The translations under genes were made by a program, and so were the position numbers. Source: Nocardioides sp. L-11A (GTDB taxonomy: Bacteria; Actinomycetota; Actinomycetes; Propionibacteriales; Nocardioidaceae). From it: DNA of 64,000 nt. Shown here piece after piece: positions 29,043-35,228 of the stretch (position 1 is the stretch's first letter; each line of letters begins with the position of its first letter). The notes under the pieces are model-generated. The model had not been told where the DNA came from. It saw only the letters and a program-made list of their open reading frames with translations, and did no database searches. The stretch covers positions 3,906,001-3,970,000 of the forward strand of contig CP124680.1 in assembly GCA_029961745.1 (NCBI GenBank), in the 5' to 3' direction.

Positions 29043-31664
29043 CTACCGGGCCGGGTCGGCGCGGCCCACGAAGCGGAACGCCCCCCAGTAGTAGGGATGC
29101 GGGTAGCGGCGGGCGACCTGGCGCCGGGCCCGGCGCAACGCGGCGGGCGGCTCGGCACCGCCGGCGAGGGCGGCGTAGAAGTGGGTCATCAGCTCCAGCG
29201 TCACCTCGTCGTCGACGACCCACAGCGCCGCCACCACGCCGCGGGCGCCCGCGGCGAGGCAGGCCGACACCAGACCCATCGGCGCACTGGTGTGGTCGGA
29301 CGAGCGCCCCGAGCTGCAGGCGCTCAGCACCACGACCGCGTCCTCGAGAGCGACCCGACCGGCCGCGATGTCACGGGCCCGCAGCCAGCCGTCGGCGAGT
29401 CGCAGACCGGAGGACAGCGGGTCGTCGTGGCGGAACACCCCGTGACAGGCGAGGTGGACGACGTCGACGCCCCGGGCGCGTGTCCCGAGCGCGGCCAGGG
29501 TCGCCTCCTCCGCGACGAGCACCTCCGCCGCCGGGAGGTGGCCCTGGATCATCGCCGCCTCCCGCTGGATGGAGGGCGCGTTCTCGTCGGGCACGGCCAG
29601 CACCAGCGCGGTCAGCTCGGGAGCCTTTGTGGGCGTCGGCTCGGGGGGCAGCAGCGGGCGGGCGAGGCTTGCGTACCACGGCCCCACCTCGTCGAGCAGA
29701 GCGTCGAAGGGGACGGCGTGCAGGTGCCGGTGCCCGACCACGGGGAGCTCGTCGTCGAGGTCGGCCAGCAGCTCCACCACGGGCGCCAGGAGCAGGTCGA
29801 AGAGCCCGTCCAGTGCGGCCGAGGAGGTGAACCCGGGCAGGACGCGGCCGCCGGGAGCCATCAGCGTGCACTCCTGCTGCCAGGCGTTGACCAGACGCCG
29901 ACTGCTCTCGGCGGTGCGCGGCAGCACCCGCGCGTCCACGTGACCGTCGCGCAGGACGAACACGACCACGTCGTCACCGGCGACGTAGTACTCGACGAGG
30001 GAGCCGCCCGGAAGACTCGGCAGCGTCTCCTCGGCATCGCCGGCGGCGACCGGGGCCGGAGCGATGGCGTCGGAGAGGAGGCGCTCCAGGCGGCGACGGC
30101 GGCCGTCGCCGGGGACGTCGGAGATCCCGGGCCCGGAGCCCGGGGAGCCGACCACCGGCGCGGCACGCGGCCGGTCGAGCGTCGCCGCCTTGGCCGCGCG
30201 GACACGGCGCAGCGCCTCCACCCGGCCGGCGTGGTCACCGCGCTGCAGGAGCAGCAGGATCAGCTCGTCGGTCGCCTCGGTGAGCGAGGGGCACCCGACG
30301 CTGGTGCGGTGCCCGAGGCGCTGGGCCCAGCCCCGGCCCACGCTCAGCACCCGGCGCAGGGAGGCCACCGCCTGCGCGACCTGGCCGGTACGACGCTCGT
30401 GGCGCGCCCGGGCGAGGAGGACGTCGGCCCGCAGCTCGGGCGTGCCCAGCCCGGCCGCCCGGGAGGCGGCGGCGTCCAGCAGGGCGGCGGCGGCGTCGGG
30501 CTCCGCGACCCGGGCCGCGAGCACCCGGGCCCGGACCACGACGAGCGGCGGCGTGTCGTCGACCTCCGCGGCGATCACCCGGTCGCAGGTGATCCGGCAG
30601 GACTCGGCGTCCCCGAGGGCCCACGCGACCTCGGCCCGGAGCAGCCAGGAGTGGATCCGCATCAGCCTGCTGCCGCAGTCGCCGAAGAGACGCTCCGCGA
30701 CGTCGAGCTCCGCGGCCGCGGCCCGATGCCGGCCCCAGGCCAGGGAGGCGCGGGCACACGCCAGAGCGGCGCGGGCGGAGCACTCGACCGCCCCGATCCG
30801 CATGAACACCTCCTCGGCGGCGCAGGCCTCCGCGTGCGCCTCGGCGGCGAACCCCGACCGCAGCAGCGCATCGGAGCGGACGAGGGCGTGCAGAGCCACG
30901 TGCCACTGCGTCTCGGGGAGCTCGGCGGCCAGGCAGTCGAGCACCTCGAGCGCCCGGGCGACCTGGCCCGTGGCGGAGAACGCCTCGGCCACGAGCGCGG
31001 CCGCGACGGTGGCCCGGTGCCCCTGGCCGGAGGCCTCGTAGGACACCCGGGCCCGGTTCAGCTCCAGCAGCGCGTTGTGGGGCAGCCCCGCGTCGAGGGC
31101 GGCCCGGCCCCGGCTGAGCTGCACCTGGGCGATGCTGTCGGCGTCGCCCAGGGCGCCGTACAGGTTCTCGGCGGCGTCGTACTGCCGCAGCGCCGCGGCG
31201 ACCTGACCGCGGCCGGCACGGGCGTCGGCGAGCTGACGCTGGACCAGCGCGCCGAGCGCGGTGACCCGGGTGTCCTCGTGGGGGATCCGCCCCAGGTCGG
31301 CCTGGAGCCGCAGCAGCCCGGCCTCGGCGGCCTCGAACTCCCCCACGAGCAACTGCACCTCGCTCGCCCCGGCGGCGGCGCGGACCGCCTCGACGGACTG
31401 GTCGGCGGCGAGCCAGTTGCGGCGCGCGCTGCGATAGGCGGCGGCCGCGGTGCCGAGCTCGCCGCCGGCGACGGCGAGGTCGCCACGGACCATGTCGATC
31501 GCCGCCAGCCGGGCGGCATCGCGCTGGCCGTCGAGGCCGTCCTCGGCACACTCGATCAGCTCGCGGCATCGCGCGACGTCGCGGTTCAGCCAGCGCCCGG
31601 CCTCCCTGATCAGCTCGTCGATCTCCGCCCCGGCCCCTGCCGCGGCGTGTCTCGCGATGCTCAT
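29043..31664 (-). CDS. TPR-CHAT protein, putative caspase-like protease
   Basis: The 873-residue protein. Residues about 10-560 are alpha-helical TPR-like repeats (many A-x-G/A-x-Y pairs, e.g. AALRQYDAAENLYGALGD). The C-terminal part (about 590-870) is a CHAT domain. The catalytic His741 is in HLACHGVF and Cys783 in LSACSSG; the supporting GHRHLHAVPFDAL loop is present. CHAT proteases cut protein targets after activation through the repeats, as in separase, bacterial gasdermin loci and type III-E Craspase. The gene ends an ECF sigma - small protein - CHAT set. The start was taken at MSIARHAAAG, 10 nt after the previous stop. Target unknown. Confidence 0.85.
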   Translation of the reverse strand: MSIARHAAAGAGAEIDELIREAGRWLNRDVARCRELIECAEDGLDGQRDAARLAAIDMVRGDLAVAGGELGTAAAAYRSARRNWLAADQSVEAVRAAAGASEVQLLVGEFEAAEAGLLRLQADLGRIPHEDTRVTALGALVQRQLADARAGRGQVAAALRQYDAAENLYGALGDADSIAQVQLSRGRAALDAGLPHNALLELNRARVSYEASGQGHRATVAAALVAEAFSATGQVARALEVLDCLAAELPETQWHVALHALVRSDALLRSGFAAEAHAEACAAEEVFMRIGAVECSARAALACARASLAWGRHRAAAAELDVAERLFGDCGSRLMRIHSWLLRAEVAWALGDAESCRITCDRVIAAEVDDTPPLVVVRARVLAARVAEPDAAAALLDAAASRAAGLGTPELRADVLLARARHERRTGQVAQAVASLRRVLSVGRGWAQRLGHRTSVGCPSLTEATDELILLLLQRGDHAGRVEALRRVRAAKAATLDRPRAAPVVGSPGSGPGISDVPGDGRRRRLERLLSDAIAPAPVAAGDAEETLPSLPGGSLVEYYVAGDDVVVFVLRDGHVDARVLPRTAESSRRLVNAWQQECTLMAPGGRVLPGFTSSAALDGLFDLLLAPVVELLADLDDELPVVGHRHLHAVPFDALLDEVGPWYASLARPLLPPEPTPTKAPELTALVLAVPDENAPSIQREAAMIQGHLPAAEVLVAEEATLAALGTRARGVDVVHLACHGVFRHDDPLSSGLRLADGWLRARDIAAGRVALEDAVVVLSACSSGRSSDHTSAPMGLVSACLAAGARGVVAALWVVDDEVTLELMTHFYAALAGGAEPPAALRRARRQVARRYPHPYYWGAFRFVGRADPAR

Positions 31665-31674
31665 GTCCGGGCGC

Positions 31675-32271
31675 TCAGCGACGCAGGTCGAGGGTCGCCC
31701 GCACCCGGGTCGCCCCGGCCGTGAGCCACAGCTCGTCGACGTCGACCGGCACCCCGCGGGCATCGAACCTGCCGTCGGGCGTGGTCCGGACCGCGCGGCG
31801 CAGGTCGCCGTGGGCGAGGAACGCGAGGTCCACGCCGCCCGTCCCCGGAGTCGGCATGACCAGGCCCTGGACATCGACCTCGCCGACGCCTGCCCCGGTG
31901 GCGTCGAGGACGAACCGGCCGAGCTCGCTGTCGAAGGCCAGGTGGACACCGCCGTCGTCACCGGATCTCACGCCGGCAGCGAGACCCGAGCGCGCGTCGT
32001 GCAGCAGCCACGCGTCGGACCAGCCGTCGGTGTGCGTCGGGCGGTGCAGCTGGTCGAAGACGCCACGCAGCCGGGCACTGAGGTCGGCCGGCGGCTGGCT
32101 CAACGGCATCGAGCCGGCCGCGGCGAGGAAGTCGCGGATCCACGCGACGCTGGCGGAGGTGGCCGGATCGCCGGAGTCGACGTACGCCGCGACCGCGGCG
32201 GCGGCCTCGTCGGAGAGGCGGCCCTCGACCCAGTCGAGCAGCTCGGCGAAGGTCGGCCGGGCGGTCATCAT
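31675..32271 (-). CDS. Small protein between sigma factor and TPR-CHAT, anti-sigma-like N-terminus
   Basis: The 198-residue protein has no named family that I can assign. The first 55 residues (FAELLDWVEGRLSDEAAAAV) look like the helical anti-sigma domain seen in zinc-binding anti-sigma factors, but the His/Cys zinc ligands are missing. The remainder (about 90-198) is beta-rich, with VDVQGLVMPTPG and DARGVPVDVDELWL. It overlaps the sigma gene by ATGA and is directly followed by the CHAT gene. The position suggests an anti-sigma or a CHAT substrate. Two adjacent ATG codons could serve as start. Confidence 0.7.
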   Translation of the reverse strand: MMTARPTFAELLDWVEGRLSDEAAAAVAAYVDSGDPATSASVAWIRDFLAAAGSMPLSQPPADLSARLRGVFDQLHRPTHTDGWSDAWLLHDARSGLAAGVRSGDDGGVHLAFDSELGRFVLDATGAGVGEVDVQGLVMPTPGTGGVDLAFLAHGDLRRAVRTTPDGRFDARGVPVDVDELWLTAGATRVRATLDLRR

Positions 32272-32885
32272 GCCTCCTCCCCCATGATCGCGCGCAGCTT
32301 GTCGAGGCACCGGCCGCGCAGCGGCCCGATGCCTCCGATGGACCGGCCGAAGCGCTGGGCGATCTCCGCGTAGCTCGGTGCGTCCGGCTCGAAGTAGAGG
32401 GCGACGAGGAGGTCCCGGCAGGTCCCGCCGAGAGTGGCGAGGGCGTCGTGCAGGGCGGTCGTCGTGGCCCAGTCGGCGAAGGGATCGGTGGCGCCCTCGG
32501 GCGCGGCCTCGAGCGTCGTGGTGCGTCGACTGAGGTTGCGGGTGCGCCAGGCCTGGCGACGAGCCACGGTCATCAGCCAGGAGGCGATCTTCTCGTCGTC
32601 GCGGAGCCGGTCGAGCGCGTCGACCAGCGCCACGAAGGTGGCCTGGGTGACGTCCGCAGCGTCCTCCGCGCTGAGGCCGTTGCGCAGGGCCACCGTGTAG
32701 ACGAGCCGCTCGTAGCGGCCGACGAGCTGGTTCCATGCCTCCCCGTCGCGGCGTCGGCAGCGGCGCAGCAGATCGGTGTCGGTGACCACCTCGCCGCGGC
32801 GGCGATCCGCGCGATCAGGATGCGCGGACCGGCCGGGTGGTCGCAGCTCGGTGACGCGAGACGGGCGCTCGCTCAGTGACGTCAT
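32268..32885 (-). CDS. ECF-type RNA polymerase sigma factor
   Basis: The 205-residue protein. Region 2 is at about 50-115 (WNQLVGRYERLVYTVALRN, then the DVTQATFVALVDAL core) and region 4 at about 145-200 (YAEIAQRFGRSIGGIGPLRGR). A 35-residue basic N-terminal extension precedes region 2. The ATG at 32883-32885 was chosen; a GTG near residue 33 would give a more typical ECF length. It would direct RNA polymerase to its own promoter set, and motifs A-E are candidates. The two downstream genes overlap or abut it, forming one unit. Confidence 0.88.
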   Translation of the reverse strand: MTSLSERPSRVTELRPPGRSAHPDRADRRRGEVVTDTDLLRRCRRRDGEAWNQLVGRYERLVYTVALRNGLSAEDAADVTQATFVALVDALDRLRDDEKIASWLMTVARRQAWRTRNLSRRTTTLEAAPEGATDPFADWATTTALHDALATLGGTCRDLLVALYFEPDAPSYAEIAQRFGRSIGGIGPLRGRCLDKLRAIMGEEA

Positions 32886-33081
32886 GTCGGGTCCCCAGGA
32901 GAAAGTCGTGGAACGCACCCACATGCGTTCCGGGAAGGGAGAGCCCACGCCAGATACTGCTGCGATCCGCCCGAGAGAGCTGTCGGTTGGACCCGGCCGG
33001 CGCTGGCCCTCGGGTCGCTTTCGACCCTAAGCGGCGGATCGCGACGCCCACAAGCCTCCCGCCGGCTGTCCACAGCGCGCC

Positions 33082-33324: not shown

Positions 33325-33346
33325 GGTTGACCAAGATGTGACAACC
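33325..33346 (+). promoter_or_regulatory. Imperfect inverted repeat before the secreted-peptide gene
   Basis: GGTTGAC and GTGACAACC face each other across about 6 nt in an AT-richer stretch 65-86 nt upstream of the peptide ATG. A TTGACC hexamer inside it could be a -35 element. It is a candidate operator for the neighbouring XRE-TPR regulator. It is not known from any family that I can name. Confidence 0.35.
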
Positions 33347-33410
33347 TCGTTGGCAAATCCCGCGGTCGAGCACCCCGCCCGGTCGCACCTCCCCCCCGAA
33401 GGAGAACCCC

Positions 33411-33539
33411 ATGTTGAAGACCCGCAAGATCATCGCCGCCACCGCCGCCGCCCTCGCCGCCACGCTGGCGGTCGCGCTGGGCACGCCCTCCCAGGGCGCG
33501 TCGGTCGTGATGGCCGACCGGCCGTCCGGCTGCTGCTAG
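33411..33539 (+). CDS. Short secreted-peptide precursor, candidate signal peptide pheromone
   Basis: The 42-residue protein starts MLKTRKII after a strong ribosome site (GAAGGAGAACCCC then ATG). A positively charged start and a hydrophobic Ala-rich core (7-24) form a Sec signal peptide. The end reads SVVMADRPSGCC. Signal peptidase could cut after V-M-A at residue 35, leaving the seven residues DRPSGCC, or earlier at QGA. The stop is 8 nt from the stop of the convergent XRE-TPR regulator. Size, export and neighbour all fit a pheromone precursor read by a TPR-type receptor. No function has been shown. Confidence 0.72.
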   Translation: MLKTRKIIAATAAALAATLAVALGTPSQGASVVMADRPSGCC

Positions 33540-33547
33540 AGCACGCC

Positions 33548-34927
33548 CTACGAGACGTCCTGGCGGACCCGGCTCGTCCGCCGGTCCCCGCCGCGCAGCC
33601 GAAGGCCGCTGGCGCTCGCCGCCGACTTGAAGGCGGCGTGCGCCGCGGCCGTCTCGCCGAGGAGGTCGAACAGCTCCGCGAGCTCGCACCAGGCCTGGGC
33701 GACCCAGCGATCGGCGCCGGGCAGGGCGGTCAGCAGCGCGGCGGCCTCCCGGCAGACGCCGATGGCCTCGTCGGTGCGGCCGAGCTCCGCCAGTGCCTCA
33801 CCATGCGCGGTCGCGGCCTCGGCCGCGCCGAGGGACGCCTGTCCGGGCGTCGCGTCGCGGGCCGCCACCACCACCTCGAGCGCCTGCTCCGGACGGCCGT
33901 CGACGATGAGCGCATGCGCCAGCACGACCTGCGCCTGCGCGATCTCGGCGCGCGATGCGCTCGTGCTGCGCAGCTCCTCGTTCGCCCGCTCCAGCTGGAC
34001 GAGCGCCTGCTCGGCGTCCGGCGGGTCGAGCGCGAGCTGGAGACGGCCGAGCTCGAGCCGGAGTCGGGCGAGGTTGCGGGCGTCCTGTCCTTCGCCGAGC
34101 AGGCCGAGGGCCCGGGTCGCGAGGGCCAGCGCCGCCTGCGTCTCGCCCCGCTCGGAGTAGACGATGCTCGCGTTCCAGTACGCCGCGCTGCGTGCGGTGG
34201 GCGAGGCCACCTCCTCGGCCATCGCGATGGCCTCGGTGCAGATCCGGGCCGCGCGGTGGAGGTCACCGCGCTCGATGTAGGCGAGCGCGACGGTCATCGC
34301 CAGCTGCACCGCCTCGTCGCTGCGCTCCAGCCCACCCTCGGCGATGACGGGGCGGATCCGCTCACCGACCTCGATGGCGAGGTTGAGATCGCCCGCCTCG
34401 CGGTAGCACCGGCTCAGCGCGATGCCGCAGCGGAGTGCCGGGAGGCCGTCGATGTCGGCGAACAGCGACTCGAGCTCCATGATCGCGTCGTCCAGCTGGC
34501 CCATCGCCTCCAGCGCCCGGGCGACGACGAACCGACCCCGGGTGGTGAGGTCCGGCACGGAGGCGCCCTCGGCGCGCGCCAGCGTCTGGCGGGCCTGGTG
34601 CTCGGCGTCGACCGCCTCGCCGTTCTCGAGCGCGAGCTCGGCGTAGCTGAAGCCGAGCCGGATCTCGTCGAGCTGCTGCTCCGAGGCGCCGGCCACGAGC
34701 TCGCCGACCGAGGTGCCGAGGCGCTCGCTGATGACCGTGAGCGCCGCGAGGGTCGGGCGGCGGGTCCCCGACTCGATGCGCGAGATGTAGCCGACGGAGT
34801 ACGCGTCGCCGGTGAGGTCCGCCTGGTTGAGTCCCTGCGCCAGCCGCGCGGAGCGCACGCGCGCGCCCAGGACGACCGGGTCGACCGTCCCCAAGAGCTG
34901 CGCCCAGCGCGCGTCGACTTGACTCAC
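33548..34927 (-). CDS. XRE-family regulator with TPR repeats, RRNPP-like
   Basis: The 459-residue protein. Residues 20-75 are an XRE helix-turn-helix (LGARVRSARLAQGLNQADL, then VGYISRIESGTRRPTL). From about 90 to 440 it is helical TPR repeats (e.g. RGDLHRAARICTEAIAMAEE). This is the architecture of peptide-sensing RRNPP regulators (Rap, NprR, PlcR, PrgX). The GTG at 34925-34927 was chosen because a TAACAT -10 box ends 8 nt upstream, which would make the mRNA leaderless; a TTG further up is less likely. It converges on a small secreted-peptide gene. Targets unknown. Confidence 0.82.
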   Translation of the reverse strand: MSQVDARWAQLLGTVDPVVLGARVRSARLAQGLNQADLTGDAYSVGYISRIESGTRRPTLAALTVISERLGTSVGELVAGASEQQLDEIRLGFSYAELALENGEAVDAEHQARQTLARAEGASVPDLTTRGRFVVARALEAMGQLDDAIMELESLFADIDGLPALRCGIALSRCYREAGDLNLAIEVGERIRPVIAEGGLERSDEAVQLAMTVALAYIERGDLHRAARICTEAIAMAEEVASPTARSAAYWNASIVYSERGETQAALALATRALGLLGEGQDARNLARLRLELGRLQLALDPPDAEQALVQLERANEELRSTSASRAEIAQAQVVLAHALIVDGRPEQALEVVVAARDATPGQASLGAAEAATAHGEALAELGRTDEAIGVCREAAALLTALPGADRWVAQAWCELAELFDLLGETAAAHAAFKSAASASGLRLRGGDRRTSRVRQDVS

Positions 34928-34941: not shown

Positions 34942-35228
34942 GGCGAGCCCTGTTCACTTCCGCTGACAAATCGTGTCAAGGAGCTCCGTCCGAGGGGTCG
35001 GCCGTCCCGTCGCCGACGGTCCTGTCCCCTCAGGTACAGCGCGTGCCGGAGGCCTCCCGGAGGACCCGTCCGGTCCGCCCTCCCCACCGTCTCCCGGCCT
35101 CGCGTGGCGGGGGTCCGGCGGTGCCCCACGGCGGGGCCGGCACCCCGGCCGCCGAGGGCGCGACACGCCGACGAACGAGCGAAAGTAAAATCTTTCGGAA
35201 AGGTCCACGGGCTGACGCCGGATGTGGC
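34942..35228. other. Stretch without a recognisable gene
   Basis: About 290 nt between the regulator promoter and the exopolyphosphatase terminator. Short frames exist on both strands but none has a ribosome site or protein-like composition. One AT-rich island (35181-35196) forms a small hairpin GAAAG-TAAAAT-CTTTC, whose loop also reads as a plus-strand -10 box. A small RNA is possible but not supported further. Confidence 0.4.

Follow-up and report, generated by a model that had tools for sequence, protein, structure and literature searches.

A conserved short peptide gene and its TPR regulator in Nocardioides: a probable RRNPP-type signalling pair in Actinomycetota

Introduction

What is the role of a 42-codon gene whose product looks secreted and ends in two cysteines, when its stop codon lies only 8 nt from that of a DNA-binding regulator on the other strand? 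The question is raised by a locus of Nocardioides sp. L-11A, whose genome is a single contig of 5.68 Mb (CP124680.1). The stretch analysed, in the following called the window, comprises 64,000 nucleotides (positions 3,906,001 to 3,970,000), and coordinates are given within it. An earlier note, made from the letters of the window only, had described a signal-type gene with a strong ribosome site and the end ADRPSGCC, placed tail to tail with an XRE regulator carrying tetratricopeptide repeats (TPRs), and had proposed an RRNPP-like peptide signalling pair in an actinobacterium, with a possible signal of seven residues. Here we argue that the two genes are best read as an RRNPP-type propeptide-receptor signalling pair in Actinomycetota, a reading to which we assign a probability of about 78%.

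A signature study, which covers Firmicutes and viruses only, lists five points for RRNPP systems, namely a small propeptide, Sec export, a receptor of 250-500 amino acids, TPRs and adjacency of the two genes, and describes the communication signals of Actinomycetota as typically enzyme-made small molecules (PMC10075063). A survey that applied models of seven RRNPPA subfamilies (Rap, NprR, PlcR, Rgg, ComR, PrgX and AimR) to 13,513 complete bacterial genomes reports RRNPPA genes in Firmicutes (PMC9765709). We recognised no report of an actinobacterial RRNPP pair in the open-licence literature searched, a scope outside which bioRxiv falls.

Results

The gene pair

The pair consists of the following elements.

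33411..33539, plus strand: propeptide gene, 42 amino acids, with a basic N-region, a hydrophobic core, a variable linker and the C-terminal tail ADRPSGCC
33398..33404, plus strand: ribosome-binding site GAAGGAG, 6 nt before the ATG
33513..33536, plus strand: conserved tail codons ADRPSGCC, the presumed receptor ligand according to tail alignments and covariation
33548..34927, minus strand: XRE-TPR regulator of 459 amino acids with a helix-turn-helix (HTH) domain and nine TPRs, the presumed intracellular receptor (Pfam, profile and fold comparison)
34697..34858, minus strand: HTH_3 DNA-binding domain, residues 24-77 (Pfam)

The open reading frame (ORF) of the peptide starts with the ATG at 33411, stops at 33537-33539 and encodes MLKTRKIIAATAAALAATLAVALGTPSQGASVVMADRPSGCC (42 aa), and the regulator starts with a GTG at 34927 and stops at 33548-33550 on the minus strand, so that the genes are convergent with 8 nt between their stop codons; both coordinates and sequence agree with the earlier description. 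The basic N-region and the hydrophobic core recur in the propeptides, as judged with our own script from hydropathy and by eye. In Pfam the regulator is matched by HTH_3 (36.5 bits, cut-off 23), TPR_12 (65.2 bits, cut-off 30.1) and several further TPR families, and NCBIfam gave no match above cut-off. A structure model of the regulator has nine helix pairs after the HTH domain in a layout like that of NprR, its fold is similar to Rap and NprR, and the closest natural protein by sequence in the PDB is PlcR (2qfc, E 2.4e-15, query residues 13-205).

An XRE regulator adjoining a small hydrophobic ORF could also be a toxin-antitoxin-like pair, in which a toxic peptide is repressed by the regulator, and some weak antitoxin or defence matches at the level of the HTH domain, below or without a cut-off, point that way (couple_hipB with 25.3 bits against 71.65; HTH_VI and capH). 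Against it stand the nine TPRs of the regulator, the occurrence of peptide genes in up to three tandem copies and the covariation between tail and TPR groove described below, and the window peptide matches no family in Pfam or NCBIfam; we consider this explanation highly improbable.

Conservation of the peptide and its linkage to the regulator

If the peptide gene is real its frame should be kept among relatives, and homologous regulators should have a similar neighbour, as the earlier note had anticipated. When the window and eight relatives, selected as carriers of a peptide ending in GCC, were compared, the frame was kept and the pooled ratio of nonsynonymous to synonymous differences per site (pN/pS) was 0.44 (few sites and no significance test); for the two nearest relatives dN was 0.011 and 0.035 and dS 0.057 and 0.228. 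The nearest named loci judged from the regulator are those of Nocardioides sp. LHD-245 (95%) and N. carbamazepini (89%). What looked like a stop inside homologues ("1 TGA/TAG") turned out, in the two loci inspected (L240 and L248), to be the C-terminal stop of the gene concerned.

Linkage was quantified from a first set of 80 homologous regulators from named genomes, 79 of which were used (L133 had no usable frame). In the convergent slot (-40 to 500 bp) 54 of 58 signal-like short ORFs ended in two cysteines (CC); in the remainder of these stretches 5 of 80 did. A convergent CC ORF was present in 48 of the 79 loci. Five outliers, recorded at slightly different thresholds, had it elsewhere: L091 at +1.6 kb, and L112, L115, L116 and L126 (a Streptosporangiaceae metagenome-assembled genome (MAG), an Actinocorallia and two Actinomycetes MAGs) divergently with the tail GPRVHCC.

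A model of the regulator was subsequently run against 215 genomes of the same genus and matched in 100 of them, with 136 match rows. Nearly all rows were surveyed, including G008:C25 (627 bits, no CC peptide) and leaving out G170:C1:2137542 (HTH only). The first 90 loci held 90 full-length regulators with a CC ORF convergent in 80, divergent in 2, on the same strand in 1 and none in 7; a further 32, mostly lower-scoring, gave 13 convergent (in two of these the regulator is internal to a tandem array, with the peptide some 1.4 kb away), 4 divergent and 15 without. Combined, a CC-ended secreted-type ORF is linked to 100 of 122 full-length regulators (93 convergent, 6 divergent and 1 same-strand). 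This linkage and the pN/pS of 0.44 go against the two outcomes that the earlier note had named as refuting its proposal, regulators lacking a peptide neighbour and a broken peptide frame.

For the converse test, a model built from 30 peptides was searched against the same 215 genomes, with matches listed down to E 4.1e-4. Among the matches listed, all 98 rows reaching the CC end fell in genomes with the regulator (79 of the 100), and none fell in the 115 genomes free of it. Counting any match at E up to 0.01, 200 of the 215 genomes are hit; the weaker rows, present in most genomes, mostly end before the tail and resemble ordinary signal peptides. Because the frame is conserved, CC ends are enriched in the convergent slot and the CC matches listed occur only together with the regulator, the pair exceeds chance, and a chance ORF or an unrelated neighbour is very unlikely.

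The same-genus peptides comprise 87 unique sequences of 38-52 amino acids, most of them with AxA-like sites according to our own rule, and where up to three peptide genes lie in tandem the copies share their last four residues. At L193 (2320-2451) the tail reads HRWCCL, with the stop one codon beyond CC, which makes it a natural test of a free CC end. At L337 (G170) and L338 (G129) four tandem regulator homologues are accompanied by one CC peptide at the array end (tails DKNYCC and DRGTCC), possibly several receptors for one peptide. A search with the window peptide as single sequence against 39 relatives clearly gave only its own copy and that of G014, the remainder (E above 0.03) being treated as noise, and the wider peptide family came to light from the regulator side.

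Covariation between the peptide tail and the TPR groove

If the tail is the ligand of the regulator, the residues lining the TPR groove would be expected to change together with it. For 82 same-genus pairs, each regulator column was scored against tail positions -3 to -8 by mutual information corrected for the average product, with positions 2, 5, 9, 12 and 13 of each TPR taken as the ligand-contact positions. The four top columns were I218 and L215 (with tail -3), R295 (tail -6) and E259 (tail -5), which occupy positions 12, 9, 9 and 13 in the TPR register. Contact positions numbered 4 among the top 10 columns (1.0 expected, p 0.012), 6 among the top 20 (2.0 expected, p 0.0098) and 10 among the top 40 (4.0 expected, p 0.0034), and a control with N-terminal peptide residues gave 0, 1 and 1. 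The best contact columns follow the tail in order, from tail -3 in TPR4 over -5 in TPR5 to -6 in TPR6. In TPR3 the contact positions are Arg173 in 82 of 82 regulators and Arg176 in 79 of 82 (Lys in 3); in the manner of a carboxylate clamp the two residues could hold the C-terminal carboxylate of the peptide.

The clearest single pattern concerns residue 215.

34283..34285, minus strand: codon of Leu215, in the inner helix 204-220, matching the third-last peptide residue in size

Where the residue before CC is Gly, as in the window, residue 215 is L, M or N (13 of 13 pairs), and with any other tail it is A, S or G (69 of 69). This column ranks first among 264 (phi 1.00), and each trait changes four times on the tree. 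Among 42 class-level pairs with a non-Gly tail, three of which (L226, L228 and L229) are same-genus repeats, A, S or G stands at 215 in 41. In 15 adjacent same-genus pairs added later the sole Gly tail (L329, EGGCC) goes with Trp215 and the other tails with A, S or G in 13 of 14; a same-strand peptide ending PGCC (L276) pairs with Met215. A binding pocket would be expected to show this kind of compensation, a bulky receptor residue facing a small ligand residue and vice versa. Two further proposals, tail -6 with residue 292 or 295 and a tail Trp with F or Y at 218, were not upheld by independent pairs.

Promoter elements, neighbouring genes and two further explanations

Upstream of the two genes and beside them the window contains the following features.

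33332..33357, plus strand: putative operator/promoter element of the peptide gene, CAAGATGTGACAACCTCGTTGGCAAA, with a similar element in clade members
34964..34978, no strand assigned: palindrome TGACAAATCGTGTCA upstream of the regulator, a possible autoregulatory site
32268..32948, minus strand: ECF sigma factor, divergent from the peptide gene, a conserved neighbour in part of the clade only and a candidate output
31675..32190, minus strand: 171-aa protein downstream of the sigma factor, start uncertain
29043..31580, minus strand: CHAT-domain protein (Pfam CHAT, 147 bits) on the same strand beyond the 171-aa gene, start uncertain

The element CAAGATGTGACAACCTCGTTGGCAAA is found once in the genome at up to 3 mismatches (0 in the reversed control). 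The equivalent element of another clade occurs once per genome in 9 of 10 genomes, 95-106 bp upstream of the peptide in all nine, with 0 in the reversed control except for 1 in one of the 10 genomes. Boxes of the TTTGNCA type, a pattern derived from the same peptide upstream regions, are found before 46 of the 79 distinct peptide genes, where shuffled sequences give 3.5, and before 33 of the 89 regulators, where they give 4.2. Since the promoter element occurs once per genome, at the peptide gene, the peptide gene itself is the main predicted target, provided that the regulator binds there.

Attempts at a wider regulon were negative. The palindrome is the sole exact TGACA-N5-TGTCA of the genome, and at up to 1 mismatch 20 sites faced 10 in the reversed control, yielding no second target; nor did the peptide-promoter elements give one in the genomes scanned. 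The commonest neighbour cluster covers only 19 of 78 loci within about 4 kb, so a conserved neighbour as general output was discarded. The ECF sigma, 171-aa and CHAT genes accompany the pair, whole or in part, in most relatives with a GCC tail and in L188 and L198, not in L057 within 4 kb, and the stretches covered at L062 and L197 showed no CHAT part; being restricted to the clade, this module is a candidate output there. A further HTH of XRE type, part of a 476-aa open frame, lies 1.6 kb past the right end of the window (C1:3971622-3971798, minus strand).

An element confined to the peptide gene, with no general further target found, is also what one would see if the peptide were the output itself, i.e. 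a secreted effector with a CC end acting in redox chemistry, metal binding or antimicrobial defence, and the TPR regulator answered to another ligand; a Cys-Cys pair could serve in metal binding or close into a disulphide. This explanation fails to predict that groove positions track tail residues, and the shared last four residues of tandem copies speak against it too, though recent duplication could account for them as well. We regard it as unlikely.

The sigma factor next to the pair in the window's clade brings up another explanation, that the regulator binds newly made or unexported propeptide within the cell that produces it, as a gauge of Sec capacity or envelope stress that involves no exchange between cells. 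The free C-terminus is available before export, and re-import is a step that we infer. The signal-type N-termini, mostly with AxA-like sites (own rule), the tandem copies, which resemble signal amplification, and the presence of importer families argue against an internal monitor, none of them decisively; the 23 SBP_bac_5 genes of the genome show only that importers exist. We rate it as somewhat less probable again than the effector. It is possible that the peptide is output only or monitors secretion from within, and peptide-receptor signalling is the reading with which we continue.

Distribution outside the genus

At the class level a regulator homologue was found in 74 of 394 genomes, and the 70 rows examined count in two Streptomyces plasmids as well as a few loci repeated from the genus. 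The CC peptide was divergent in 33, convergent in 5, on both sides in 4, on the same strand in 2 and not found in 26. In Jiangellaceae, a family judged from the names of near-identical proteins, the peptide is divergent with tails such as WPGMCC, DPGMYCC and SPGDFCC, and it is mostly divergent also at some Streptosporangiales-type loci. At four Jiangellaceae loci (L273, L275, L277 and L281) one regulator lies between a divergent peptide ending PGDFCC and a convergent one ending GGSDFCC, so that one receptor may answer to two ligands, perhaps an agonist and an antagonist.

Homologues 37-41% identical occur at 16 Actinomadura/Thermomonospora loci (L110, L113, L114, L118-L121, L123-L125, L127-L131 and L133), none of which has a CC-ended secreted-type ORF in its stretch; these regulators may have lost their partner, use another tail or be listeners only. 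Of 32 Streptomyces plasmid records with homologues two were examined, one with a same-strand CC-ended hypothetical protein and one without. On the S. goshikiensis plasmid NZ_CP115937 (L301, 4586-4801), WP_008741297.1 corresponds by its coordinates to an ORF ending KDIPLCC, on the same strand just downstream of a 34% identical regulator homologue and near a BTAD regulator. Phage carriage was not concluded from record MT836207 (47% identity over 74%), which is an unannotated UNVERIFIED faecal scaffold.

A phylum-level search of 396 genomes gave 8 with a homologue besides the source genome (E up to 1e-40). In another class (9 loci) and one further MAG, a signal-like ORF of 28-34 aa with a purine-rich ribosome site stands beside the regulator at 8 loci (L305-L310, L312 and L313), seven times divergent and once convergent, as a candidate partner. 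The tails are YPWPK, FPWPK, FPWGGT, FPGP, NWPHH, WPHVP and FPGCCG, and should these ORFs truly belong to the regulators, the pairing would extend beyond tails with CC.

Discussion

The proposal of an RRNPP-like pair in an actinobacterium has gained support from the linkage at 100 of 122 regulators, the pN/pS of 0.44, the NprR-like layout, the match to PlcR and the tail-groove covariation. The locus shows four of the five signature points: a propeptide of 42 amino acids (range 10-100), a receptor of 459 (range 250-500), TPRs and an adjacency of 8 nt, the wording of the last point coming from a figure legend. On Sec export, the fifth, the observation is a basic N-region with a hydrophobic core, as scored by our own script. 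With four of five, the system appears to work like an RRNPP pair and to carry the genomic signature as far as tested, the link to a subfamily being one of profile similarity to PlcR.

Several observations weigh against this reading. Among the fold matches the TPR domains of LGN outrank Rap and NprR, and fold alone is consequently no proof of function. The cleavage site is ambiguous in the window's clade. A CC peptide was not found at 22 of 122 regulators in the genus, one of these having the tail HRWCCL with the stop shifted one codon and another (L146) lying at a contig end, nor at 26 of the 70 wider rows, nor at any of the 16 Actinomadura/Thermomonospora loci. The TTTGNCA boxes were counted where they had been derived, and element scans and neighbour comparison identified no target besides the peptide promoter. 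In the covariation, L291 in TPR6 goes out of order with tail -4, several other columns, including HTH, loop and outer-helix positions, are also out of line, and the proposals for residues 292 or 295 and 218 were not upheld by independent pairs. Column 215 was picked after the fact by a search; it has exceptions in L240 (Pro before CC, Phe215), L338 (Thr before CC, Val215) and L080, a MAG (tail TRCC, Asn215), and the three well-supported independent pairs all agree on it, which is too few (sign test p 0.25). Finally, the rows are related rather than independent and linked genes share their history, an objection of kinship and selection that is only partly answered by the control with N-terminal residues, by the recurrent changes on the tree and by the pairs added later. 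The probability given above was left unchanged by the fuller counts, since the new pairs confirm the reading while the lower link rate in distant regulators counts against it.

The mechanism that we infer involves export, processing, re-import, binding, action of the regulator on the element, a direction of regulation and outputs, and would run as follows. The small gene would make a Sec-exported propeptide, from which a C-terminal tail of about 8-14 residues ending PSGCC would be released, candidate forms being SVVMADRPSGCC, ADRPSGCC and DRPSGCC. The released tail would re-enter the cell and lie in the inner groove of the nine TPRs, with its carboxylate and two cysteines near TPR3, whose Arg173 (invariant) and Arg176 (nearly so) could clamp the carboxylate. 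The third-last residue would sit in TPR4 (215/218), while TPR5 (259) would take the fifth-last and TPR6 (295) the sixth-last. Binding would alter the grip of the HTH domain on DNA, first at the promoter of the peptide gene itself, which would close an autoinducing or auto-repressing loop, and the adjacent sigma-CHAT genes may be a further output in the window's clade.

Compared with known systems, NprR-NprX and Rap-Phr belong to Bacillales, whereas the pair described here is from Actinomycetota, has a ligand ending in two cysteines at the very C-terminus of the propeptide and has its peptide gene convergent or divergent. PlcR is an HTH-TPR activator of its own peptide gene; although it is the top natural PDB match by sequence, it is shorter than our regulator (chain of 293 aa). 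In Rgg-SHP and ComR-ComS of Streptococcus the short peptide gene is convergent or divergent to the receptor and a main target of it, an arrangement like the one proposed here, whereas the sequence match of ComR and Rgg to our regulator is confined to the HTH region. The NsdA family of Streptomyces (NF053720), for which we know of no peptide partner, shows weak similarity in the TPR region (20.8 bits, cut-off 75), and the FxSxx-COOH system TPR protein (NF040586) scores 25 bits against a cut-off of 300. At the peptide level, PapR7 is given as ADLPFEF (PMC6568020) and lacks Cys-Cys, and SHPs are described in the signature study as leaving by PptAB, not Sec (PMC10075063).

It is likely, if a little less so than the pair itself, that the locus belongs to a widespread peptide-pheromone family of Actinomycetota in which a nine-TPR regulator reads an X-Cys-Cys-COOH end with a readable specificity code. 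A possible form of this code is the size swap between residue 215 and the third-last peptide residue, together with the clamp of Arg173 and Arg176. The cysteines would be one dialect of a broader system, since another class has the same layout with 28-34-aa ORFs and non-CC tails. The system is easy to miss because the peptide genes have about 40 codons and, where sources name them, are nearly always called "hypothetical" or "uncharacterized" protein. The receptor-propeptide family would span Nocardioides, Pimelobacter, Jiangellaceae and some Streptosporangiales-type genomes, and if the reading is true Actinomycetota, a group usually linked with small-molecule signals, would gain a genetically encoded and evolvable peptide language.
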